Notes: a model not told the origin generated them from the letters alone. A DNA stretch of 33,506 bases from Bacteroidales bacterium (GCA_030596125.1 JAUVKT010000020.1:1-33506), one strand, 5' to 3'. Positions 8,218 to 23,430 are shown, counted from the stretch's first letter. Program-made: numbers and translations.

Positions 8218-8300
8218 CAATTAAAGTTAAAATATACCTATTAGTAATGATATTTGAACAACGGTATGGTATTTGACGTTAGAGAAGTAAAAAATATATT

Positions 8301-8660
8301 ATGGTTGAGTTTTTAACAAAAGAGACATTTCTATCCAAGGTTTTTAACTTTGAGGAAAACAAAGATTGGAAATATGAAGGTGAAAAGCCGGCACTTATTG
8401 ACTTTTATGCTGATTGGTGCCAGCCTTGTAAAATGGTTGCTCCGATACTTGAAGAACTTGCTGAAGAGTATGGTGACAAACTGGATATTTATAAAATTGA
8501 CACAGAAGCTGAACAGGAGCTTGCCGGTATTTTCGGAATAAAAAGCATTCCTTCATTACTTTTTGTACCAAAAGAGGGACAACCACAGATGGCTATGGGT
8601 GCACTTCCGAAAGATACTTTCGAGAAAGCCATTAAGGATGTTTTGGGTGTGGAAAAATAA
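8301..8660 (+). CDS. trxA: Thioredoxin
   Basis: A 119-residue cytoplasmic thioredoxin without a signal peptide. The active site is D-W-C-Q-P-C-K (Cys40 and Cys43) and the cis-Pro loop is S-I-P-S (Pro84). The fold order matches the family (D-F-Y-A-D-W before the active site, then I-D-T-E-A-E, then I-K-S-I-P). It is slightly longer than E. coli TrxA because of about 15 extra N-terminal residues. The redox motif is C-Q-P-C instead of the common C-G-P-C, which may shift its potential. It is monocistronic, divergent from cca, and followed by a non-coding stretch ending in a terminator. Confidence 0.94.
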   Translation: MVEFLTKETFLSKVFNFEENKDWKYEGEKPALIDFYADWCQPCKMVAPILEELAEEYGDKLDIYKIDTEAEQELAGIFGIKSIPSLLFVPKEGQPQMAMGALPKDTFEKAIKDVLGVEK

Positions 8661-8728: not shown

Positions 8729-8841
8729 TACGTTAAACAAACAAAAGGTAACAACAAAAAACAACATTAGTTTGTTTTCTGGGATTTAGGTTTAGGGACA
8801 TTAGGGAAAATCAGGGCACGTTCAGGTCCTGATTTTTTTTT
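8729..8841 (+). ncRNA. Possible small RNA or long trx 3' UTR
   Basis: There is no ORF between trx and xseB. TACGTTAA at 8729-8736, with TTTG at 8704-8707 (21-base spacer), loosely resembles a Bacteroidota promoter. AAACAAAC (8735-8742) can pair with GTTTGTTT (8770-8777), four GGG runs follow (8781-8816), and a strong terminator closes the unit. It could equally be the trx 3' UTR; the promoter match is imperfect. Confidence 0.3.
8807..8841 (+). terminator. Intrinsic terminator after trx / candidate sRNA
   Basis: AAAATCAGG (8807-8815) pairs perfectly with CCTGATTTT (8828-8836), followed by further T residues to 8841. The U tract lies on the plus strand, so it serves rightward transcripts. It abuts the xseB stop codon and may also block transcripts arriving from the right. 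Confidence 0.8.
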
Positions 8842-9037
8842 ACTGCATTTCTTCAATTATCTTGTCTATCTCCTTTTCGGTGTCCCTTAATTTTCCCTGA
8901 CATAGTTTAAGTAGCAGCGAGGCTCTTTTTACCTTTCCGGTAAGTTCATCAACATCCGGTTCTCCGTTTTCAATCAATTCAAGAATCTCCTCAAGTTCAG
9001 CGACTGCTTCATTAAATGTTGGCTTTTTTTCTGACAT
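8840..9037 (-). CDS. xseB: Exodeoxyribonuclease VII small subunit
   Basis: A 65-residue, highly charged helical protein with the family pattern T-F-N-E-A-V-A-E-L-E-E-I-L, then I-E-N-G-E-P-D-V-D-E-L, then a second coiled-coil helix. Several XseB chains bind the C-terminal helices of one XseA to form the enzyme that degrades single-stranded DNA to oligonucleotides. Starts one base after the end of the upstream kinase gene, so it is the last gene of the operon. It is separated from xseA by two sensor kinase genes, which is unusual because the two subunits are commonly adjacent. Confidence 0.93.
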   Translation of the reverse strand: MSEKKPTFNEAVAELEEILELIENGEPDVDELTGKVKRASLLLKLCQGKLRDTEKEIDKIIEEMQ

Positions 9038-9038
9038 A

Positions 9039-10976
9039 CTAACTTTTTATGTGAATAAAAAAAGTAGTTCCTTTTTTACTGTTGCTCTCAAAGCTAATAT
9101 AACTATCATTAATTTCTGCTATCTGGCGGGCTAAAAGGAGTCCCAGACCAAGCTTTTTATCACTCTTGTTAATATCGTCTTTATACCTGTTAATATCAAA
9201 AATAGTGTTCTGGAGTGAAGCAGGTATACCTGATCCAAAATCGGTGACAGAAATAATTGAACCGGTTCGGGCTATTTGTCCTCTGATAATTATTTCTGAA
9301 CTGATGACTGATGCTTCAACACTGTTTTTAATAAATATTGTGAGTATTGTCTTCAGAGAGTGTCTGTCAAAATCGACTGTAAGTTCAGGATCTATGTCAA
9401 ATCTTATCTTTATCTCTTTTTTAATAGTCATCCGTAGCAACTCGGGCAGTAATTCATGCATATAGTCACTTACATTGATCATTTCGTTGCTTATATTGTA
9501 TTTCCGGCGCTGAAGCTTCGACCAGAGTAGTATTCTTTTAAGCGATCTCTCAATTGATGTAGCGAGGTTATCAATGCTTTTAAGTTCGTTTACAAAAGAG
9601 AGTATCTCAAACTTCTTAAGTGTGAGTTTGTGGAGTTTATTAAGTTTGTTGGTGAGATCGTTAAATGGAACAGATAGTTTATATGAGATCATTGTAAAGA
9701 AGACATTCTTATTTTCACGAAGTAGTAGCAGGCTATCTTTGTATTTTACAGACCTTTCGTATGCTTTTTCAAGGTCAAGTTTACTTGTTACAAGCTGCCG
9801 GTTTGAATTACGAATGGAATAAAAGCTTATAAGAAGGTATGTACCTGCAATCCCGAGGATAAATAGTGAGAAATAAATGAAAGATTTTATATGTTCTTCA
9901 GTTCTTATTCGCCGTAAAATATACTTATTCACCTCTTCACTTTGTCTTATCTCTTCTTCGGCGGTGTAAATATCCAGACGCGTTTTTGAGTTTTCAATTA
10001 TCCCAGAGGTTCTCAGTCTCTCAATTTCACTGTTTACTTCCCTTGCTATTGCTGAGTATTCAAATGATTTTTTTAAATTACCTTCTGTTAATAGCTGTTG
10101 TGAAAGAGACTTATAGAATTCAACCGGGTTATATATCTCATCATAAATATGGCTCAAATCACTGATTCTGTCAATTCTGTCAGCAGCCTCGGCAATATTT
10201 CTCCGGATAAGGAAAAACCTTGCATACCTGTAGTTTATTTTTGATTCATATTCCGGTGAGTTAATTAACATTGACTCCTGTTTCATGAGATCAATCCATT
10301 CGTCAGCGTTCGAAGGGGAGGCAATTAAACAATTATCTGCCAGGAAGCTATAACAATCAATCTTTCTTATATATCCGGTAATGTCAGAATAGTAATCTAC
10401 CGCTTCATGTAACGATACTATGCTTTTAGCGTGCATGCCAAACCGAAGATAGACTTCGCCCAATGTGGTAAATCCGTCACCAATTCTTCTGTTATTACCT
10501 GATTGTTGCCTGGTTTCAAGAGATCTTTTAAAGTAATCTATACATTTAATTGTATCGTTTTTTGTAAGATAGATTACACCTATGTTATGGGTCTCAGTGG
10601 CAATCCCATCCATATAGCCTATGCTGTCATAAATATGTAATGCCAGGTTGTAATTCGTTTCAGCTTCATTGTAAAGGCCGGATCCTATGTAAAGGTTTCC
10701 GGTAAGGTTAAGATTGTCTGCAATTATTACCGGATCTCCTGTCTTGTTCGCCAGTTCCTTTCTTATATCAGCAATTATAAGACCTTTCATAAGCGAACTC
10801 TTTTCATATGACAGAGCTGCCTTTTTTAATTCAATTAGTTTTGTAGAATCACTTAATGGCTCAAGCCTGGCAATAAGTGTATCACAGAATCTGTCCTGGC
10901 CTTTTAATCCAGTGTAAGCTGATCCTGTAAGGAGAATCAAAAAGATCATTATATATTTTCCTCTTATGCTCCTCAT
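9039..10976 (-). CDS. TPR sensor histidine kinase-like protein lacking the H-box His
   Basis: A 645-residue protein: signal peptide (about 1-26), TPR-like helical region (about 40-320), coiled coil, one membrane segment (about 364-388), a HisKA-like region (about 415-490) and a HATPase_c domain (about 535-645). The ATP-binding boxes look intact: Asn551 (I-K-N-S-V-E-A), D579-F-G-S-G583 and G610-L-G612. The H-box reads I-S-Y-K-L-S-V-P-F, so Tyr432 replaces the phospho-accepting His of the usual S-H-E-L-R-T-P. It should bind ATP but not autophosphorylate in the normal way. It overlaps the upstream kinase gene by 4 bases (ATGA) and is probably co-translated with it. No response regulator gene is adjacent. 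Assignment as a pseudokinase partner is inference. Confidence 0.87.
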   Translation of the reverse strand: MRSIRGKYIMIFLILLTGSAYTGLKGQDRFCDTLIARLEPLSDSTKLIELKKAALSYEKSSLMKGLIIADIRKELANKTGDPVIIADNLNLTGNLYIGSGLYNEAETNYNLALHIYDSIGYMDGIATETHNIGVIYLTKNDTIKCIDYFKRSLETRQQSGNNRRIGDGFTTLGEVYLRFGMHAKSIVSLHEAVDYYSDITGYIRKIDCYSFLADNCLIASPSNADEWIDLMKQESMLINSPEYESKINYRYARFFLIRRNIAEAADRIDRISDLSHIYDEIYNPVEFYKSLSQQLLTEGNLKKSFEYSAIAREVNSEIERLRTSGIIENSKTRLDIYTAEEEIRQSEEVNKYILRRIRTEEHIKSFIYFSLFILGIAGTYLLISFYSIRNSNRQLVTSKLDLEKAYERSVKYKDSLLLLRENKNVFFTMISYKLSVPFNDLTNKLNKLHKLTLKKFEILSFVNELKSIDNLATSIERSLKRILLWSKLQRRKYNISNEMINVSDYMHELLPELLRMTIKKEIKIRFDIDPELTVDFDRHSLKTILTIFIKNSVEASVISSEIIIRGQIARTGSIISVTDFGSGIPASLQNTIFDINRYKDDINKSDKKLGLGLLLARQIAEINDSYISFESNSKKGTTFFIHIKS

Positions 10977-12901
10977 TTTCCTGCCGGGATATTAATAGTT
11001 ACTTTGGTTCCACTGTTTACACTGGTTTGTATATCAAGGCTACTGTTTCCGATTTCAAGCAGCTCAATACAAATAGCCAGACCAAGACCACTTCCTTTCT
11101 CATTTGATGTACCTGTCCCGGATGTCAGATATTCTCTTTTTAATAATTTTTCACGAATCTCCTCTTCCATTCCAATGCCATAATCAGTAACAGAGATCTG
11201 AACAATATCCGAATTTGATTTTAACTGAACATCAATTGAACTGTCAGGATTGCTGAATTTTACAGCATTGCTAATTAAATTTCGCAAAACCGATTTCAGA
11301 ATATCCGGATTTATATACACAGATACATTTTCACCTGTTTCTGACTTTATAGTTATCTTTTTCTTTTTAGCGGAGGGCTTAAACAGAGTGATAATATCCT
11401 TAATTACAGGATAAACAATAAATGTTTCTGACTCCAGATTTCTCGAATCATCCTGTACTATTGCCATGCTCTTGAGATTTACCAGTAGCTGATTTAGCTG
11501 GAATGAAGTATCAGCGAGAAGGGAAGAGTACTCACGTATATCTTTTATTTTCAGAATCTCATGATCGGTGATAATTAACTGTGAAAAACCGAGAATTGCC
11601 TGGAATGGATTTATCAGATCGTGCGCAAATACTGATATAAGTGTATCGAGAAGCCTGTTTTCCTTTTCGATCTCCCTGTTTTTCTTGTTTATCTCCCTGT
11701 TTACCGTAGTAAGTTTCTTTGTTTCAACAGATAATTGTTTTCTTAATTGTTTTTTCAATTTACGAGTGTGTTGCAGTACTATTACCAGAATTGAAAACAA
11801 TATTAAAATAGCGAAGAGGTAGATAATAAATTTTCGTTGAACGATCTCTTTCTGATTATTTTCGGCAATCTCCTTTTTAATTGTCTGGTTAATTATTTGA
11901 TCCCTGTTAAAGGCATATTCGGCTAACAGGGGAGCAATAAGATCATTTCTGTCTGTAGAACTTTTATTGTATTCAAGATTATCAGCTATCGAATTATATT
12001 TAGCAGCCATCTCAAAATTCTCCAGGGCTGTGTAAGATGCAGCCATATAATTTACAACTTCATCGAGGTCGTCAATAAAAGCTTCGTTTGCGGTAGAATA
12101 GACCTTATTTCCAAGTACAATAACCTCTTCAAAGTTTTTCTTATTCAGGTAATATTTCATAGCAGGAATACAGAAGCCCAGTTTGTCAATATAATTTATG
12201 CTATCCGTGAGCTCACTTAACCCTTTTTCTATCCATTCCCATGCTTTTCCCGTTTCATCAAGGGAGTTATAGTTATTAATTATTATACCGATTATTGCGA
12301 TAATTGAAAAATCAATCTTAGCCGGATCAAAATTATAATATAGTTCGGTAGCTAAAGAGAGGGATTCTTCATAATTGCCAGTGGCTGCCTCAGCCTCTGC
12401 AAGATTAATTGTATAGATTGCTCTGTTTGTTGCACTCTCTGCTGACGAAAATTCAATAGCTTTTTTCAGGTATTTGATGATAGATTCATAATCTTCTATC
12501 TCATAAAAAATTACGGCGATGTTATTTAATACGTGTGAGAATCCATTATAATAATTGGCAGAGGTGAACAGGTTGAGTGCTTCGAGGTAATGGGCGAGTG
12601 CCAGGCCGTTTTCGTTTGTGTAATAATAATAGATCCCTTTGTAATTGTCAATAATTCCTTTATTTAAAGGCATGTCGGGATAGCTAACATCAAGAAGAAT
12701 ATTAATACAGTCATAAAACCCATCAAAATCACCTTCATCAAGCATTTTGGTGCTTAAATCATAATACTCGAGTAAAAAATAATCCCTGAAACCTTCAAAT
12801 GGGGGATACTCATAGCATTCCGGGAATAGTGTAACCTGTCCGGTCGCTCCAATAGAAAGAAACGTTAGAATCCCAATAAAGACTTTCTTAATTTTGTTCA
12901 T
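10973..12901 (-). CDS. TPR-containing sensor histidine kinase
   Basis: A 642-residue protein with the same architecture as its downstream neighbour: signal peptide (1-21), periplasmic TPR-like helices (about 35-310), one membrane segment (about 358-377), a long coiled coil (380-420), HisKA and HATPase_c. The H-box is F-A-H-D-L-I-N-P-F with His427. The N-box Asn545 (L-I-S-N-A-V-K-F-S), D573-Y-G-I-G577 and G603-S-G-L-G607 are present, so it should be an active kinase. It starts 37 bases after xseA. There is no fused receiver domain and no adjacent regulator, so its phosphotransfer target is elsewhere. It is probably paralogous to the next gene, judged from shared domain order and size; overall sequence identity is low by eye. 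Confidence 0.9.
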   Translation of the reverse strand: MNKIKKVFIGILTFLSIGATGQVTLFPECYEYPPFEGFRDYFLLEYYDLSTKMLDEGDFDGFYDCINILLDVSYPDMPLNKGIIDNYKGIYYYYTNENGLALAHYLEALNLFTSANYYNGFSHVLNNIAVIFYEIEDYESIIKYLKKAIEFSSAESATNRAIYTINLAEAEAATGNYEESLSLATELYYNFDPAKIDFSIIAIIGIIINNYNSLDETGKAWEWIEKGLSELTDSINYIDKLGFCIPAMKYYLNKKNFEEVIVLGNKVYSTANEAFIDDLDEVVNYMAASYTALENFEMAAKYNSIADNLEYNKSSTDRNDLIAPLLAEYAFNRDQIINQTIKKEIAENNQKEIVQRKFIIYLFAILILFSILVIVLQHTRKLKKQLRKQLSVETKKLTTVNREINKKNREIEKENRLLDTLISVFAHDLINPFQAILGFSQLIITDHEILKIKDIREYSSLLADTSFQLNQLLVNLKSMAIVQDDSRNLESETFIVYPVIKDIITLFKPSAKKKKITIKSETGENVSVYINPDILKSVLRNLISNAVKFSNPDSSIDVQLKSNSDIVQISVTDYGIGMEEEIREKLLKREYLTSGTGTSNEKGSGLGLAICIELLEIGNSSLDIQTSVNSGTKVTINIPAGK

Positions 12902-12938: not shown

Positions 12939-14324
12939 TTATTTACTAATTTCAAAAATTTCACTGCTTAATTTTCCATCATATAATATAGTAGTGACTT
13001 TTTCTCCCTTATTCAGACCTTTAATACCTTTTACTGCTCTGTTATCCTTTAGTGTAATTGAGTATCCGCGTTTTAATACATTTTCAGGGCTAAGGTGATG
13101 AATTAATTTGCCGATCTGTTTAATTTTCAGATTCTTGTCATACAAGTTCCTGCCGGGTTCTGTTTGTAATTTGATCAGCTTGTCTGATAATAACCCTTGT
13201 TTTATGTTTATGTAGAACTTAAGGTTATTAATCAGGTGACCTGCTTTTGATAAGATTTCCTGTTCTTTTGACCTGAGGAGAAGTTTTACCCTGTTTTCGA
13301 GAACCATACTCCTGGTTTTAAGCAGGTTTGATTTTTTTACTATCTCATTTCTTGCTACAGGCATTAATTTCAGGCTGAACGTTTCAATTTTGGTTCGGTT
13401 TGACTTCAATATTCTTTCTGTATTATCGATTATAGAGTCTTTAATGGACAGAAGATGATTTTCAACTGATGCAGTGGTTTCAATTATTAAATCAGCCGCA
13501 GCAGTAGGGGTTTTACAATTTCGGTTTGCAACAATATCGGTAACCGAAAGGTCTTTGTCATGGCCTATGCCGGTAATTACCGGTATGGGGAATTGGGTTA
13601 TGAAATAGCCCAGTTCATAATTATCAAACCAGTTAAGATCTGTCTGAGATCCTCCTCCCCTGACAATCACCACAACATCATAATTAACCGGACCGGCATT
13701 TATCCTGTCGAAAGCACTAATTATTGAGAGTGATGTTTCATAACCTTGCATTGCAGCATGGAACAGATCTGCTTCATAGGTGTACCCGTAAGGGTTATTG
13801 ATGAGATGATCACTGAAATCCTGATAGCCTGCTGCTTTCTCAGATGAAATTACTGCAATATTTTTTGGCAGCAGGGGAAGCGATAACAGCTTGTTCATTT
13901 CAATAACACCATCACTCCTGAGCCTGTTTATGATCTCTCTCTTCTTCAATGCGAGGTCGCCGATAGTGAATTTTGGGTCAATGTCAAGAATAATAAGGCT
14001 GAGTCCATACAAAGAGTGATACTCAATCTTAACTTTCACCATTATTCTGAGTCCTTCAGCCAGGTCGTGACCAGCTGTAGTTTTAAAGTATGGAATGAGC
14101 AACCGGGCCTGCCGGTTCCAGATTATTGCTCTTATGCGAGCTATTACATTGTTATCATGAGAACTGGTTTCAGTCAGTTCAAGGTAATAATGTCCCGAAT
14201 AATTTATTTTCAGCTCTGACACCTCTGCTCTTACCCAATACTCTTCGGGTAATTTGTCGATTAATGATTCTCTTATTCTCTCCTGTAATTCCGAAAGAGA
14301 AAAGTTATTGATACTTTCTTTCAT
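12939..14324 (-). CDS. xseA: Exodeoxyribonuclease VII large subunit
   Basis: A 461-residue catalytic subunit, close to the usual length (E. coli about 456). It has an N-terminal OB-fold DNA-binding domain (about 6-110, starting F-S-L-S-E-L), then the conserved core with V-R-G-G-G-S-Q-T-D-L-N-W-F-D-N and I-T-G-I-G-H-D-K-D-L-S-V-T-D, then T-P-T-A-A-A-D-L. A long helical coiled coil (about 285-400) is where XseB binds. It overlaps the S8 peptidase gene by 4 bases (ATGA). The enzyme acts in mismatch and recombination repair and trims single-stranded DNA. Confidence 0.96.
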   Translation of the reverse strand: MKESINNFSLSELQERIRESLIDKLPEEYWVRAEVSELKINYSGHYYLELTETSSHDNNVIARIRAIIWNRQARLLIPYFKTTAGHDLAEGLRIMVKVKIEYHSLYGLSLIILDIDPKFTIGDLALKKREIINRLRSDGVIEMNKLLSLPLLPKNIAVISSEKAAGYQDFSDHLINNPYGYTYEADLFHAAMQGYETSLSIISAFDRINAGPVNYDVVVIVRGGGSQTDLNWFDNYELGYFITQFPIPVITGIGHDKDLSVTDIVANRNCKTPTAAADLIIETTASVENHLLSIKDSIIDNTERILKSNRTKIETFSLKLMPVARNEIVKKSNLLKTRSMVLENRVKLLLRSKEQEILSKAGHLINNLKFYINIKQGLLSDKLIKLQTEPGRNLYDKNLKIKQIGKLIHHLSPENVLKRGYSITLKDNRAVKGIKGLNKGEKVTTILYDGKLSSEIFEISK

Positions 14325-15964
14325 TCTCCGGTTTTTATAATAATTGCTTTTTCATTGAATCCCGATCCTTCCGCAGCCAAAATATATGGTCCCGGCCGCA
14401 GATTGCGGAATTCCGGTATTTGCATAACAGGGCCATTATCTCCCTTAAATGTCCTGCTTATCATTAATGATCCGGATAGATTATATATCCTGATCTCCAG
14501 ATCGTTAATTATATCGTTAACTCGTAAGAAAAGGTCTCTTTTGGCCGGATTGGGATAGATGACAATTCTTTTGCTTTTTGAAATGATCACTTCGTTAAGC
14601 CTTACCCATGAATTGTAGAAATTTGCAATACCGTATCCATAGAGAGAATCGGGAAAAACGTATCTGTCGGCGCCAATTTTAATAGAATTTATTATGTCTT
14701 TGTTGGTTGCAGCAGGGTAGGCCTGCATAAGGCAGGCTGTCAGGCCGGAAGCAATCGGGCATGAGAAAGAGGTGCCATTTCCCTGTTGCACAAAGCCTGG
14801 GTTTCTTTGGTAAGATACTTCAACCCCCATAGTGGTGATATCGGGTTTAACACGCCTGTCGTATGATGGTCCGGCAGAGGAGAAACCTGAAATAATACCA
14901 TATTGATTAATAGCTCCTACTGCCAGTACATTCTCATTATCGGCAGGAGCAGTGATGTATTTCCATGGTTCATCCCTTGAATTTCCGGCTGAATTTATAA
15001 CGACCATGCCACGGGAACAGGCAATGCCGGCAGCTTTGGAAATAAAAATTGTTTCTCCGTCCATCTGGTGGTACACATAATTATAAGCCGGATCGTCAAA
15101 CAGTGAATATCCTAATGAAGTTGACAGAATATCCGCTCCGGCACTATCGGCAAATTCTGCTGCAGCTACCCAGAAATCTTCTTCAACCGGGTATTCGGAT
15201 CCGACATCTTCACTTCGTAACAGAATATATTCAGCTCCGGGGGCCGAGCCTTTAATATGTCCCGGAATATCACCTGCAAGTATTGAAAGTACTGCAGTAC
15301 CGTGGTAACTATGATCGAAAACATAGTCTGTTTGTAATACAAAGTCATAGGTCGGACCAACTCTGTTATCCAAAAACAGATGGCTTAATGATTCTACCAT
15401 ATTCCCATAGGTGAACCCCGCATCAATTACAGCGATTAGAATTCCATCACCCTCGAAACCCATATTATGCAGGTTGTCTCCTCTGACTATCTCAAGTTGA
15501 CATCTGAATGATGGAGATTCATCAGATAAGTATTCTTCCTCAAATTTTCTGATTATAGATTGCCCTTTTCCTGTAACAGGAGGCTTAACAAGCTTTATCG
15601 AGTCAATAAATGATATCCCGGTAAGTATCGGTTTATCGACAGGCAGTTGGGTAGTCACTACTACTGTATTCATCCATTTTGATACACAATGTATATTAAG
15701 GCCCCTTTGCCTTAAAGAATCGAGATATGGCTTATGCAGTGGCAGGTCGGAATAACCGGTTGTAACACCGTTTTTTATTCGTCGTTCAATAGATCTCAGG
15801 GAGAGATAGTCTTCGGGAATATACTGATATTGATTTGATCCTCCTTTATCATTGAGGTAAATACGATAAAAATAATCTGAATTACTTTCTGTCTGTGCAT
15901 ACAGGCTGAGAGTAAATAAAGCACACGGAAGTATTAGTAATATCTTACTGAACAGAGTATTCAT
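14321..15964 (-). CDS. Secreted S8 subtilisin-like protease with type A T9SS sorting domain
   Basis: A 547-residue protein with a signal peptide (about 1-24), a pro-region (25-150) and a peptidase S8 domain (about 160-455). The triad is visible: Asp181 (A-V-I-D-A-G-F), His221 (H-G-T-A-V), Ser399 (G-N-G-T-S-F-S-C-P), with oxyanion Asn328 (S-A-G-N). The C-terminal 80 residues form a type IX secretion type A sorting domain (I-Y-P-N-P-A, then I-Y-N-L-S-G, then L-R-P-G-P-Y-I). It should be exported across the outer membrane and either attached to the surface or released. It lies 3 bases after the MORN gene and overlaps xseA by 4, so secretion and DNA-repair genes share a transcript, with no evident functional link. 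Confidence 0.94.
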   Translation of the reverse strand: MNTLFSKILLILPCALFTLSLYAQTESNSDYFYRIYLNDKGGSNQYQYIPEDYLSLRSIERRIKNGVTTGYSDLPLHKPYLDSLRQRGLNIHCVSKWMNTVVVTTQLPVDKPILTGISFIDSIKLVKPPVTGKGQSIIRKFEEEYLSDESPSFRCQLEIVRGDNLHNMGFEGDGILIAVIDAGFTYGNMVESLSHLFLDNRVGPTYDFVLQTDYVFDHSYHGTAVLSILAGDIPGHIKGSAPGAEYILLRSEDVGSEYPVEEDFWVAAAEFADSAGADILSTSLGYSLFDDPAYNYVYHQMDGETIFISKAAGIACSRGMVVINSAGNSRDEPWKYITAPADNENVLAVGAINQYGIISGFSSAGPSYDRRVKPDITTMGVEVSYQRNPGFVQQGNGTSFSCPIASGLTACLMQAYPAATNKDIINSIKIGADRYVFPDSLYGYGIANFYNSWVRLNEVIISKSKRIVIYPNPAKRDLFLRVNDIINDLEIRIYNLSGSLMISRTFKGDNGPVMQIPEFRNLRPGPYILAAEGSGFNEKAIIIKTGE

Positions 15965-15967
15965 GGG

Positions 15968-16762
15968 TTACCATTTCACTACACCGGATTTTTCAGGATC
16001 TTCAATCTTCCCTCCTTTTTTTTCAAGCATATCGAGGTATTCAGTCTCTTTTCTGATTAATTCGGTTCTGTTTTCAGGGATACCATTATGATATACAATC
16101 GTTTTACCCTCCGTTCCGTTGGCATTATAAAACTTCCATCTCCCATCTCTGACATCATTTTTGTACAAACCAACAATCTCTTTCTTTCCATCAGGATGAA
16201 AAGATTGAAATGAACCGTTTACTTTACCAATCACATATGACGATAAAAGACATATTGTGCCATCAGTGAAATATTGTTTCCATGCCCCGTCTTTTATATT
16301 ATTCTTATAATTAATCTCCTCTGCTATGTTTCCGTTCCAGTGATATTTTATACTGGGACCCTCTTTGGAATTATTAATATAATTCTCCCTGCAGATAAGG
16401 CAATCTTCAAACCTGGCGGAGTAAAATTTCCATATCCCTGTTCTCATTTGTTTTATATAGATCCCTCTGGCAGCTATAAAACCGCCCGGATGATAGAAAG
16501 TGGCATCAACCGAATCGGTTGTTCTGCTGTGGATAAGTATTGATATCAGATCACCATTCTGGTAGTATCTTTTAAATTCACCTACAGGTTTGCCATCAAT
16601 AAAATATCCATCATACAGGATGTTCCCGTTTTCAAATTTTTTTATCCATTTACCCTGCTTAATACCGTTTTCATCAACCCTGTTATTAAGCTCCTGCTCT
16701 TGCGAAAAAGCAATCTGAAAGGTAAATATGAGAAATATGGTTGTAATCTGTCTGATCATCAT
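15968..16762 (-). CDS. Exported MORN-repeat (YwqK-like) protein
   Basis: A 264-residue protein with a signal peptide (cleavage near A-F-S-Q). It then has about six MORN/YwqK-type repeats of the form G-x-W-[KI]-x-[FY]-x-x-x-G and N-G-x-[IK], for example N-G-I-K-Q-G-K-W and D-G-A-W-K-Q-Y-F-T-D-G. Such repeats build a beta-solenoid sheet. Database entries often label these as YwqK family antitoxins, but no toxin gene is adjacent and the protein is exported, so an antitoxin role is not supported here. It is the first gene of the six-gene run ending in xseB. ATG codons at 16762 and 16759 are both possible starts. Confidence 0.85.
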   Translation of the reverse strand: MMIRQITTIFLIFTFQIAFSQEQELNNRVDENGIKQGKWIKKFENGNILYDGYFIDGKPVGEFKRYYQNGDLISILIHSRTTDSVDATFYHPGGFIAARGIYIKQMRTGIWKFYSARFEDCLICRENYINNSKEGPSIKYHWNGNIAEEINYKNNIKDGAWKQYFTDGTICLLSSYVIGKVNGSFQSFHPDGKKEIVGLYKNDVRDGRWKFYNANGTEGKTIVYHNGIPENRTELIRKETEYLDMLEKKGGKIEDPEKSGVVKW

Positions 16763-16843: not shown

Positions 16844-18742
16844 TTATTTAACCTCTTCAAAATCGACATCTGTAACTTCGTCATCTCCGTCACCTTTAGC
16901 TTGCTGTTGTCCGCTTTCCGGGTCGGCCTGGGGTTCTCCCTGTTGTGATTTGTATATCTCCTCGGAAGCTGCCTGCCATAGAGTATTCATCTCATTCATA
17001 GCCTTCTCGATTGCATCAAGGTCCTGATTCTTATGAGCTTCTTTCAGATCGGCAAGTGCTTTCTCAATGGGCTCTTTTTTATCTGCAGGAAGTTTATCTC
17101 CAAACTCTTTGATCTGTTTTTCAGTCTGGAAGATCATACTATCGGCTGCGTTTATTTTATCCACAGTCTCTTTGGCTTTCTTATCAGATTCTTCGTTAGC
17201 TTTAGCTTCATCTTTCATCTTCTGAATATCTTCATCACTTAAACCTGATGATGCTTCAATCCTGATACTTTGCTCTTTACCTGTTCCCTTATCCTTAGCT
17301 GCTACATTTAATATACCGTTGGCATCAATATCAAAGGCTACTTCAATCTGCGGGATTCCTCTGGGTGACGGTGGTATTCCATCAAGATGGAATCGTCCGA
17401 TTGTTTTATTACCTGCTGCCATTGGTCTCTCTCCCTGAATTACATGTATTTCAACTGAAGGCTGATTGTCTGCTGCAGTTGTAAATGTCTCAGTCTTTTT
17501 CGTAGGAATGGTTGTGTTAGACTCGATAAGCTTTGTCATTACTCCACCCATTGTTTCAATACCGAGTGAAAGAGGTGTTACATCAAGCAGAAGAACATCT
17601 TTTACTTCTCCTGTAAGAACACCTCCCTGGATTGCTGCACCAATGGCAACTACCTCATCGGGGTTTACACCTTTTGACGGAGTTTTACCAAAGAATTTCT
17701 CTACAACTTCCTGAATGGCAGGGATCCTTGTCGAGCCACCCACAAGAAGAACTTCATTAATATCGGAGGGTTGCAGGCCTGCATCTTTCAAAGCCGTTTT
17801 ACATGGCGCTATAACTGCCTGGATAAGACTATCTGCGAGTTTCTCAAAGTTGGCACGGGTAAGGGTTTTAACAAGGTGTTTCGGAATACCGTCTACCGGC
17901 ATTATATATGGAAGATTTATTTCGGTACTGGTTGAACTTGACAGTTCAATTTTGGCTTTTTCTGCTGCCTCTTTTAACCTTTGAAGGGCCATCGGGTCTT
18001 TTTTCAGGTCTATACCCTCGTCCTTCTTAAATTCTGAGGCCAGCCAGTCGATTATGACCTGGTCGAAATCATCACCACCAAGATGAGTGTCGCCGTTAGT
18101 CGATTTAACTTCAAATACTCCATCTCCAAGTTCCAGAAGTGATATGTCGAATGTTCCTCCACCAAGATCGAAAACTGCAATTTTCAGATCTTCAGCTTTT
18201 TTATCAAGGCCATAGGCAAGTGCTGCGGCAGTAGGCTCGTTAATTATTCTTTTTACTTCCAGTCCGGCAATTTCACCTGCCTCTTTAGTGGCCTGGCGCT
18301 GCGAATCATTAAAATATGCAGGTACAGTAACAACAGCTTCTGTAATCTCCTGACCAAGATAGTCTTCGGCAGTTTTCTTCATTTTCTGAAGAACCATTGC
18401 TGAAATTTCCTGTGGTGAGTAGAGCCTCTCATCAATTTTTACGCGTGGGGTGTTGTTGTCTCCTTTAACTACAAGATAGGGGACTCTCCCAATATCCTTC
18501 GAAACATTACCAAACAACTCGCCCATAAATCTTTTTATGGAGTAGATTGTTTTAGTTGGATTAGTGATTGCCTGACGTTTTGCAGGATCACCAACTTTCC
18601 TCTCGCCGTTTTCAATAAAAGCGACTATAGAGGGGGTTGTGCGTTTCCCTTCACTGTTAGGGATAACCACCGGTTCATTACCCTCCATAACCGAAACACA
18701 GGAGTTTGTTGTTCCTAAATCAATACCAATTATCTTTCCCAT
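16844..18742 (-). CDS. dnaK: Chaperone DnaK (Hsp70)
   Basis: A 632-residue Hsp70 with a complete nucleotide-binding domain ([12 protein letters not shown] near the N-terminus, D-L-G-G-G-T-F-D phosphate loop, G-G-S-T-R-I-P), the linker [13 protein letters not shown], a substrate-binding beta domain and a helical lid. It ends in an acidic tail with [13 protein letters not shown]. It folds nascent and stress-damaged proteins with DnaJ and GrpE. Neither grpE nor dnaJ is adjacent. No CIRCE element is present; a sigma-54-like sequence lies upstream. It is flanked by its own terminator, so it is a single-gene unit. Confidence 0.98.
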
Positions 18743-21127: not shown

Positions 21128-22741
21128 ATGCGAAGATGGAAGTTTACAGGACTTGTAGTGTTGATGGTTTTTTCACTGCTGGGCATTATCTGGGTTCAGA
21201 TGGTTTGGATCAATAATGCTATTGCAATAAGAAATGGTCTTTTTAACAAGTTAGTGTACCAGAGTCTTCAGTCTACAGCAAGAAAGATTGAGATGACCCG
21301 CCAGATGGAGTTTTACCGGAGGATGATGATTGCTGATTCATTACTGCAGTCACAGACCACCGATATGAAAACCAATCCTTTTGATCAGGATAACGATGAG
21401 AATATTATTATAAGATCGGGTACAGTGGGCACTTCTGAGACATTTTCATTCAAAATGACCGATAATGGGAGGGAGGTAGGGTTCTCGGGCGATTACCAGG
21501 CGGAAGTAATTACCGATAGCACCCCTTATGTAATTAAGTATGACAACAGGGTAACGGCTTTTGATGGTGCAAGGTACGCCACAGGCGATGAGTTGGTTGT
21601 TAACCAGCAGGAATTCCGGCATTGGCTCAGCACGAAATCAGCGGAATTGAGAAGGATGGGGGATCAGATGGTAAATGAGATATACAATTGGGAACTTAAC
21701 ACCAATACTGATAGAAATATTGTACTCAATACACTCAGGGAGGATCTTGGCAACTCGGGTATATTTACACCATTTGAATTTGCAATTCTGGAAGATAACA
21801 GGGTGGTGGATGGTTTGTATAACAGGGCTTCGGAAAAAGAATTCATAGGCAGTAACTACTCGGTAGCCCTTTCCCCCGATCGTCTTATAAAGAAGAATAC
21901 CAGATTATCTGTCGTGTTCCCTGAACGAAAAAATTACATACTTGGATCAATGTCAGTTTTACTGGGAGCATCCATGCTGTTTTCAATAATTATACTATTT
22001 ACATTTGCACTGAGTATCTTCTTCATAATCAGGCAAAAAAAGACATCAGAGATGAAATCCGATTTCATCAATAATATGACACATGAGTTTAAAACTCCCA
22101 TTGCAACCATATCACTTGCTGCTGACACAATAGCTAATTCGAAGATCATTGGCAATGAAGAGAGAATCCGGCATTTTGTAGGAATGATAAAGAAAGAGAA
22201 TACACGAATGAATAAACAGGTTGAGAATATCCTGCAGATCTCCTCTCTTGACAGGCATGATTTAGAGTTTGATTTTCAGCATGTTGATATTCATTCTATT
22301 ATTGCCAGATCTATAGAGACCATAGGAATCCAGGTGGAGGAAAGAAACGGGAACATATTCTTTTTCCAGGAAGCAGAGAATCCGTTTATTGAGGGAGACA
22401 GGGAGCACCTTACTAATCTGGTACATAATCTGCTTGATAATGCTAATAAATATTCACCTGAAAATCCCGAAATTACAGTTAGAACAGAAACGGTTAATAC
22501 CAGTTTAATGATCTCTGTTGAAGATAAGGGAATCGGAATGAACCGCTCTGTTCAGTCAAAAATATTTGAAAGATTTTATCGTCAAACCGGTGGTAATGTG
22601 CATAATGTAAAAGGTTTCGGACTTGGTCTTAGTTATGTCAGTGCAATCGTTGAGGCTCATAAAGGGCATATAGAACTGTTTAGTGAGCCTGGTAAGGGAA
22701 CAAGATTTAAAGTATATTTGCCACAAAGTCTTGAAAAATGA
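21128..22741 (+). CDS. Membrane sensor histidine kinase
   Basis: A 537-residue kinase with two membrane segments (about 8-30 and 270-302) flanking a periplasmic domain of about 240 residues. HisKA has His319 in N-M-T-H-E-F-K-T-P-I. The HATPase_c domain has Asn438 (L-L-D-N-A-N-K-Y-S), D466-K-G-I-G470 and G496-F-G-L-G500. All motifs are intact. The architecture and the overlapping OmpR-type regulator resemble the RprX/RprY pair of Bacteroides; this is a likeness from memory, not a verified orthology. There is no HAMP domain obvious between TM2 and HisKA. It overlaps the regulator gene (ATGATGA junction), so they are co-translated. The signal sensed is unknown. Confidence 0.93.
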   Translation: MRRWKFTGLVVLMVFSLLGIIWVQMVWINNAIAIRNGLFNKLVYQSLQSTARKIEMTRQMEFYRRMMIADSLLQSQTTDMKTNPFDQDNDENIIIRSGTVGTSETFSFKMTDNGREVGFSGDYQAEVITDSTPYVIKYDNRVTAFDGARYATGDELVVNQQEFRHWLSTKSAELRRMGDQMVNEIYNWELNTNTDRNIVLNTLREDLGNSGIFTPFEFAILEDNRVVDGLYNRASEKEFIGSNYSVALSPDRLIKKNTRLSVVFPERKNYILGSMSVLLGASMLFSIIILFTFALSIFFIIRQKKTSEMKSDFINNMTHEFKTPIATISLAADTIANSKIIGNEERIRHFVGMIKKENTRMNKQVENILQISSLDRHDLEFDFQHVDIHSIIARSIETIGIQVEERNGNIFFFQEAENPFIEGDREHLTNLVHNLLDNANKYSPENPEITVRTETVNTSLMISVEDKGIGMNRSVQSKIFERFYRQTGGNVHNVKGFGLGLSYVSAIVEAHKGHIELFSEPGKGTRFKVYLPQSLEK

Positions 22742-23430
22742 TGAGCACTTCACTAAAAATATTCCTTGTTGAGGATGACCTTAGTTTCGGTTCAGTACTG
22801 AAATCTTACCTTGAGATAAATGAATTTGAGGTAACATGGATTAATGATGGTAAGTATGCAGTTGAAGCATTCAAAAAAAATAGTTTTAACCTCTGTATTC
22901 TCGATGTTATGCTTCCTAATGTTGATGGCTTCACCATTGCACACGATATCAGGGAACTGAATAAGAGGGTGCCGATAATCTTTCTTACGGCGAAAAAATT
23001 AAAGGAGGATGTTCTGAAAGGATATGGAATTGGGGCTGATGAGTATATTACCAAACCGTTTGATACCGATATTCTGCTTGCCAAAATAAAGGTTATAGTA
23101 TCACGAACTGGTGCCGTTAAGCAGACAAAAGATGTAATGGAGATTGGAATATTTAAATTTAACAGAAAGATCCGTATCCTCTCTGATGGCGTTGAAGAGA
23201 GAAAACTATCTCCCAAGGAGGCTCAACTGCTTGAAATGCTTGCAGCCTCTTCTAACACTTTGTTAAGCAGAGAGGTGGCTTTAAAAGCAATATGGGGATC
23301 GGATGATTATTTTACTGCAAGGAGTATGGATGTATATATTACAAAGCTTCGTAAGTATCTTTCAGATGATCCGGGTATTCAGATCAGGAATATACATGGC
23401 GCCGGTTTTCAGATGATAATCGAAAACTAA
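22738..23430 (+). CDS. OmpR-family response regulator
   Basis: A 230-residue regulator with a receiver domain (acidic pocket E12-D13-D14, phospho-acceptor Asp56 in I-L-D-V-M-L-P, Thr84, Lys106 in I-T-K-P-F-D) and a C-terminal winged helix (about 130-228; S-P-K-E-A-Q-L-L-E-M-L and R-S-M-D-V-Y-I-T-K-L-R-K-Y-L). It is the cognate partner of the overlapping kinase. ATG at 22738 or 22741 may be used. Its class binds phased direct repeats, matching the array at 21051-21088 upstream of its own operon; autoregulation is inferred. Confidence 0.95.
   Translation: MMSTSLKIFLVEDDLSFGSVLKSYLEINEFEVTWINDGKYAVEAFKKNSFNLCILDVMLPNVDGFTIAHDIRELNKRVPIIFLTAKKLKEDVLKGYGIGADEYITKPFDTDILLAKIKVIVSRTGAVKQTKDVMEIGIFKFNRKIRILSDGVEERKLSPKEAQLLEMLAASSNTLLSREVALKAIWGSDDYFTARSMDVYITKLRKYLSDDPGIQIRNIHGAGFQMIIEN

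Follow-up and report, generated by a model that had tools for sequence, protein, structure and literature searches.

Known pairs of sensor kinases and pseudokinases

Sensor kinases have mostly been treated as homodimers. The pairing of a kinase with a pseudokinase is known from FasB/FasC and DivL, while the location of such a pair between xseA and xseB, the genes of the DNA-repair enzyme exonuclease VII, together with the mirrored losses among relatives described below, appears to be new; our search of a literature library for a kinase within an xseA-xseB operon found no paper. In group A Streptococcus, FasB and FasC are encoded by adjacent membrane kinase-like genes and the products form a heterodimer, in which FasB has been proposed to phosphorylate FasC, the kinase domain of one chain being dispensable and FasC H246 being required (PMC12675982). 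Two adjacent genes from a Bacteroidales bacterium, here designated K1 and K2, are arranged alike, the likeness in their case being one of the genes alone. FasB and FasC differ from K1 and K2 in that both retain the His, have six membrane helices and lack TPR, and in that the regulator, FasA, is encoded within the Fas operon (PMC12675982). In Rhodobacter sphaeroides, CheA4 phosphorylates CheA3 (PMC6829392). As in K1/K2, the His and the kinase activity are divided over two chains; however, CheA3 and CheA4 are cytoplasmic chemotaxis kinases which are missing whole domains, whereas K1/K2 have lost residues only (PMC3591291, PMC6829392).

DivL of Caulobacter, a pseudokinase which regulates another kinase pathway, shares with K2 a Tyr in the H-box (Y550); its ATP site is impaired, and that of K2 is altered in part. 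It differs in being PAS-based and in that its Tyr matters, whereas the Tyr of K2 is not conserved and the candidate partner is the product of the neighbouring gene (PMC4211667, PMC5361649). Evolved ChrS of Corynebacterium is a further case, in that it remains important although catalytically dead and forms a pair with the paralogous kinase HrrS, but this ChrS is a laboratory mutant whose catalytic domain is frameshifted, and the two kinases belong to separate two-component systems (PMC9491836). Among named families, Porphyromonas FimS (NCBIfam NF053520) is the best for K1, with the same TPR-HisKA-HATPase organization. FimS contains TPR. The scores against NF053520 are 117 bits for K1 and 63 bits for K2, with a cut-off of 600, and neither protein is a member.

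Organization of the locus

The window, i.e., the whole stretch of DNA that was analysed (33,506 nucleotides; GCA_030596125.1 JAUVKT010000020.1:1-33506), contains a tight run of genes on the minus strand. In the direction of transcription these encode a MORN-repeat protein (15968..16762), an xseA neighbour that is kept in relatives; an S8 subtilase with a Por secretion tail (14321..15964); XseA, the exonuclease VII large subunit (12939..14324; Exonuc_VII_L in Pfam, 223 bits); K1, a TPR sensor histidine kinase of 642 residues (10973..12901); K2, a TPR pseudo histidine kinase of 645 residues (9039..10976); and XseB, the exonuclease VII small subunit of 65 residues (8840..9037; Exonuc_VII_S, 53.8 bits, cut-off 24). 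The successive gaps are 3, -4, 37, -4 and 1 bases. Both kinase reading frames and the 4-base ATGA overlap (10973..10976), which joins the stop codon of K1 to the start codon of K2, were found as described in an earlier reading made from the sequence alone. K1 and K2 are flanked by xseA and xseB and thus placed exactly between them, inside one tight exonuclease VII operon, the subunit genes of which are split by the kinases. We refer to the place of K1 as position A and to that of K2 as position B. The short xseB gene directly after K2 had been overlooked in the sequence-only reading.

The dnaK gene (16844..18742, minus strand) is located just upstream of the MORN-subtilase-xseA run, and the order of dnaK followed by the xseA run recurs in the relatives L018-L022, without the subtilase there. 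No response regulator gene is adjacent to the pair, as had been stated before, and this is literally true; the nearest receiver match lies about 8 kb away on the opposite strand, in an operon (21128..23430) of a HisKA kinase (21128..22741) and an OmpR-type regulator (22738..23430) whose genes overlap by 4 bases. The genome carries about 35 receiver matches.

Domain composition of K1 and K2

The results from Pfam searches indicate TPR_12, HATPase_c (73.6 bits) and a HisKA match below the cut-off (16.7 bits) in K1, and TPR_12, TPR_1 and HATPase_c (46.6 bits), with no HisKA match, in K2. Of the HisKA and HATPase domains previously attributed to both chains, HATPase_c is therefore recovered in both, while HisKA is sub-threshold in K1 and unmatched in K2. 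In each protein, a signal-like segment at the N-terminus is accompanied by a single strong membrane segment, located at about residues 358-376 in K1 and 365-388 in K2. Single-chain AlphaFold models (mean pLDDT 72.7 for K1 and 68.6 for K2) comprise in both cases a TPR solenoid and one long membrane/coiled-coil helix, together with paired DHp helices and a GHKL fold; in that of K2, confidence is low over the catalytic domain (pLDDT about 50-74). A structure search with the K2 model retrieved TPR proteins and sensor kinases, HK853 and DivL among them.

The H-box of K1, which had been described as intact, was confirmed both in the sequence, where H427 (codon 11621..11623) sits in VFAHDLINPF, and in the alignment. 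In a motif table of 91 related TPR kinases, the H, N, N, K, D, G and G residues, the lid Thr and GxGLG are kept in all six K1 orthologues. K1 and its orthologues thus have the acceptor His along with the N, G1 and G2 boxes which typify sensor kinases of the HisKA/HATPase_c type.

Conservation of the pair and loss of the phospho-acceptor His

A survey of the same family (117 genomes) identified five other genomes, four from genus g2 and one from g7, with strong homologues of K2 over its full length (39–43% identity, E value below 1e-130), and these same five also have strong full-length homologues of K1 (36–39% identity). In every one of them the two genes are adjacent, overlap by 8 bases and are located between xseA and xseB, so that the linkage claimed for the window extends to its relatives. 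When named genome contigs were scanned with the alignment, these five genomes came up again, as Bacteroidales or Bacteroidetes MAGs, while a scan of these contigs with the single K2 sequence as query gave no match. All clade relatives identified by name are MAGs, and the evidence, which is that of sequences, comes largely from such metagenome-assembled genomes.

Y432 of K2 (codon 9681..9683) shares one alignment column with H427 of K1, both being located in DHp helix 1 of the single-chain models, and in a profile alignment of the K2 orthologues this column lines up with the H-box His of HK853 (PDB: 2c2a). The presence of Tyr in place of the acceptor His, as read earlier, is confirmed by both alignments. 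K2 consequently lacks the phospho-acceptor His in the H-box that characterizes a sensor kinase. At this position the window genome has Tyr, the g7 genome Gly and the four g2 genomes Leu, so that His is absent from 6/6 K2 orthologues, each in a genome with its K1; it is present in 84 of the other 85 kinases of the motif table, i.e., those that are not K2 orthologues of the window clade. Judged from the alignment, the loss of His is conserved in the K2 clade and the Tyr is not. The expectation of a conserved Tyr in close genomes was thus not borne out, and the Tyr, being specific to this genome, would not matter for its chemistry. A conserved Tyr at the H position, such as defines proteins of the DivL type, is not found in the K2 clade.

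Two candidates for an alternative acceptor in K2 were rejected: the Tyr in its own right, as it is not conserved, and a displaced His in the DHp domain, since none is conserved among the clade relatives. The only invariant His of the K2 clade is H130, in the TPR part. Neither a substitute His aligning with the H-box nor a His in close homologues, each of which had been named as evidence against a His-less chain, was therefore encountered.

ATP-binding site of K2

All six K2 sequences keep the Mg-coordinating Asn551, D579, G581 and G583 of the G1 box, G610-x-G612, and L613. The ATP-binding boxes of K2 had been described as looking intact, which holds for the Mg-coordinating Asn, G1 and GLG but not for four other positions: the first Asn of the N-box is replaced by Ile in 6/6, the N-box Lys by Glu, Ser or Asp, the lid Thr in 5/6, and the first Gly of G2 in all six. 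These four positions are invariant or nearly so in the 85 other TPR kinases. The N-box Lys contributes to catalysis in this superfamily, yet CheA is active with an acidic residue at this position. With the motifs kept only in part and residues such as the N-box Lys replaced, nucleotide binding by K2 is plausible and catalysis doubtful.

Descent and constraint

In the TPR part, the identity within the clade is 41.3% for K1 and 41.7% for K2. In the DHp domain, K1 is the better conserved (73.5% versus 50.6%; 90.5% versus 50.4% in helix 1), while in the catalytic domain it is K2 (54.5% versus 46.5%; the site-bootstrap range of the difference is +1.3 to +14.6). This crossed constraint amounts to 31 points (18.7 to 43.0), and is absent, even slightly reversed, in a comparison group with two mostly complete kinases. 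The extra conservation of K2 is found in the first part of the catalytic domain, before G1, and in G1 itself; the lid and G2 are outside it, with G2 being 89% conserved in K1 and 59% in K2. The crossing fits a K2 catalytic domain that is kept for some use different from ordinary phosphotransfer, although it may carry out phosphotransfer as well.

According to the sequence-only reading, the His-less chain might bind ATP and phosphorylate its partner in trans. In its strongest form, K2 would be the main donor to H427, and the catalytic domain of K1 would be without a target in the heterodimer. The DHp domain of K1 and the catalytic domain of K2 are indeed the better conserved halves, residues Asn551, D579, G581, G583, G610, G612 and L613 are kept in 6/6 K2s, and there are precedents in FasB/FasC (PMC12675982) and CheA4/CheA3 (PMC6829392). 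Nevertheless, the N-box Lys, the first N-box Asn and the first G2 Gly are gone from all six K2s and the lid Thr from five, the extra conservation of K2 lies away from the lid and G2, and every catalytic motif is retained by K1. Given an ATP site altered at four positions in K2 and a full set of motifs in K1, trans-phosphorylation by K2 is possible but not favoured as it was stated, and an obligate trans kinase, although it is the chief alternative, seems unlikely to us.

The poor conservation of DHp helix 1 also bears on a model in which K2, linked to K1 solely by ancestry and operon position, acts separately: it would be either a sensor decoy or, like DivL, a homodimeric pseudokinase to which a response regulator binds. 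DivL, with a Tyr at the H position, has no kinase activity and acts as a sensor of a regulator in its phosphorylated form (PMC4211667). Other kinases match the K2 model about as well as DivL (PDB: 4q20) does, and K1 looks capable of acting alone. However, the part of DHp helix 1 in which a regulator would dock is poorly conserved in K2 (50%) while the lower part of helix 2 and the catalytic domain are conserved, and the model leaves unexplained the complementary losses in genera g3 and g12 (see below). We regard a separate role of K2 as distinctly improbable.

With regard to descent, the clade K2s score higher with a position-B profile than with a position-A profile in every region (6/6), which traces them to His-bearing kinases of position B. 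The window-clade K1s score about equally with the two profiles, and a tree in which all A kinases are held together is not rejected (p-AU 0.383). In the tree, the stems of both the K1 and K2 clades are long, with constraint following; that of K2 has 1.98 changes per column. A gene relaxed after duplication and by now functionless could produce such a stem and the loss of catalytic residues. After the stem, however, the conservation of K2 equals that of K1 in the TPR part and exceeds it in the catalytic domain across three genera, and the frames are full-length in 6/6. By this measure K2 is constrained rather than decaying, and its being on the way out is highly improbable. K2 as a chance or degenerate gene was likewise rejected, on the conserved locus and frames and on constraint.

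Losses in related genera

The sole exception among the 85 kinases at the H position is the upstream kinase of g3 (L023:3461-5422, minus strand), in which Asn replaces the H-box His and His a conserved Pro; the kinase downstream of it is complete. This case comes from one genome. In g12, the upstream kinase is complete and the downstream kinases (L087:4171-6111, L088:4126-6078 and L089:113-2077) keep the His but have decayed G1 (DEGKKI, DEGKGL or DGRKEI) and G2 boxes (GAGLAF, GTGLSF or GAGLAL), which, as far as these motifs tell, is a second and different way of breaking position B. No pair was read in which both His are missing. Together with the window clade, g3 and g12 represent three separate losses that hit different chains and different functions and left one complete partner each time, although three is a small number of degeneration events. 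The loss of the K2 His next to an intact K1 His in the window clade, and the breakage of the opposite partner in related bacteria, suggests that K1 and K2 work as one mixed unit. Relatives in which one or the other member is broken would serve as a natural experiment, informative about the parts that a kinase heterodimer requires and about phosphorylation in cis versus trans.

Proposed function of the pair

We consider it rather probable that K1 and K2 form a heterodimer in which H427 is the sole phospho-acceptor, catalysis comes from K1, and K2 acts as a pseudokinase that binds nucleotide and as a second TPR sensor. The two products of the operon would be the chains of one membrane complex, each having its TPR sensor in the periplasm, a single membrane helix, and paired DHp helices together with a GHKL domain. 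K1 would be the complete kinase, bearing the only acceptor His of the unit. K2 would pair with it via the DHp bundle and contribute the second sensor, and its altered, still nucleotide-shaped catalytic domain would mainly set the activity of K1; K2 is thus probably a nucleotide-binding regulator. In a variant, K2 might trans-phosphorylate H427 weakly or in a modified way. The phosphate would then pass to a response regulator encoded elsewhere.

The architecture, the linkage, the loss of the His and of part of the ATP site, the orthology of K2 to His-bearing kinases and the crossed constraint are read directly from the sequence; the formation of the heterodimer, the direction of regulation, the signal and the regulator are what we infer. 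At the sequence level, the adjacency, joint conservation and complementary motif losses of a pair of the FasB/FasC kind are all found here. Against a heterodimer, genes of a conserved operon could stay linked even if their products do not contact each other, and K1, which looks complete alone, could be a homodimer.

Distribution of the locus in the family and the order

Across 23 loci that were read, tandem pairs of TPR kinases lie between xseA and xseB in 10 genera of the family, and at most of these loci the genes overlap slightly or are a few bases apart; beyond the window clade these genera are g3, g5, g9, g11, g12, g13 and g14. In g6, g8, g10 and g15, xseA is directly followed by xseB with no kinases, which provides an empty control. 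In an order-wide search of 393 genomes, from which 40 further loci were read, four more families proved to have a kinase pair at this place and six more a single TPR kinase, in either case directly between xseA and xseB. Among the ten best loci from other members of the class, outside the order, none has xseB beside a TPR kinase. That the exonuclease VII operon is associated order-wide with envelope TPR kinases calls for an explanation. One that is conceivable, albeit rather doubtful, is an obligate heterodimer across the order that coordinates exonuclease VII with an envelope signal, its catalytic duties drifting between the chains, with the loss falling, depending on the lineage, on the His or the ATP site of chain B or on the His of chain A.

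Genus g4 probably has the kinase insert too, since in L083 xseA is followed by the first part of a TPR-kinase-like protein (about 8290..8652), which is cut off by a scaffold gap (N run). At three loci (L143:2376-5024, L144:6853-9450 and L145:7727-10426), the first gene after xseA encodes a TPR protein that has no kinase domain and takes the place of the first kinase. The L143 protein, the only one of the three run on Pfam, contains a SpoIIE (PP2C-type) phosphatase domain, and those of L144 and L145 align with it.
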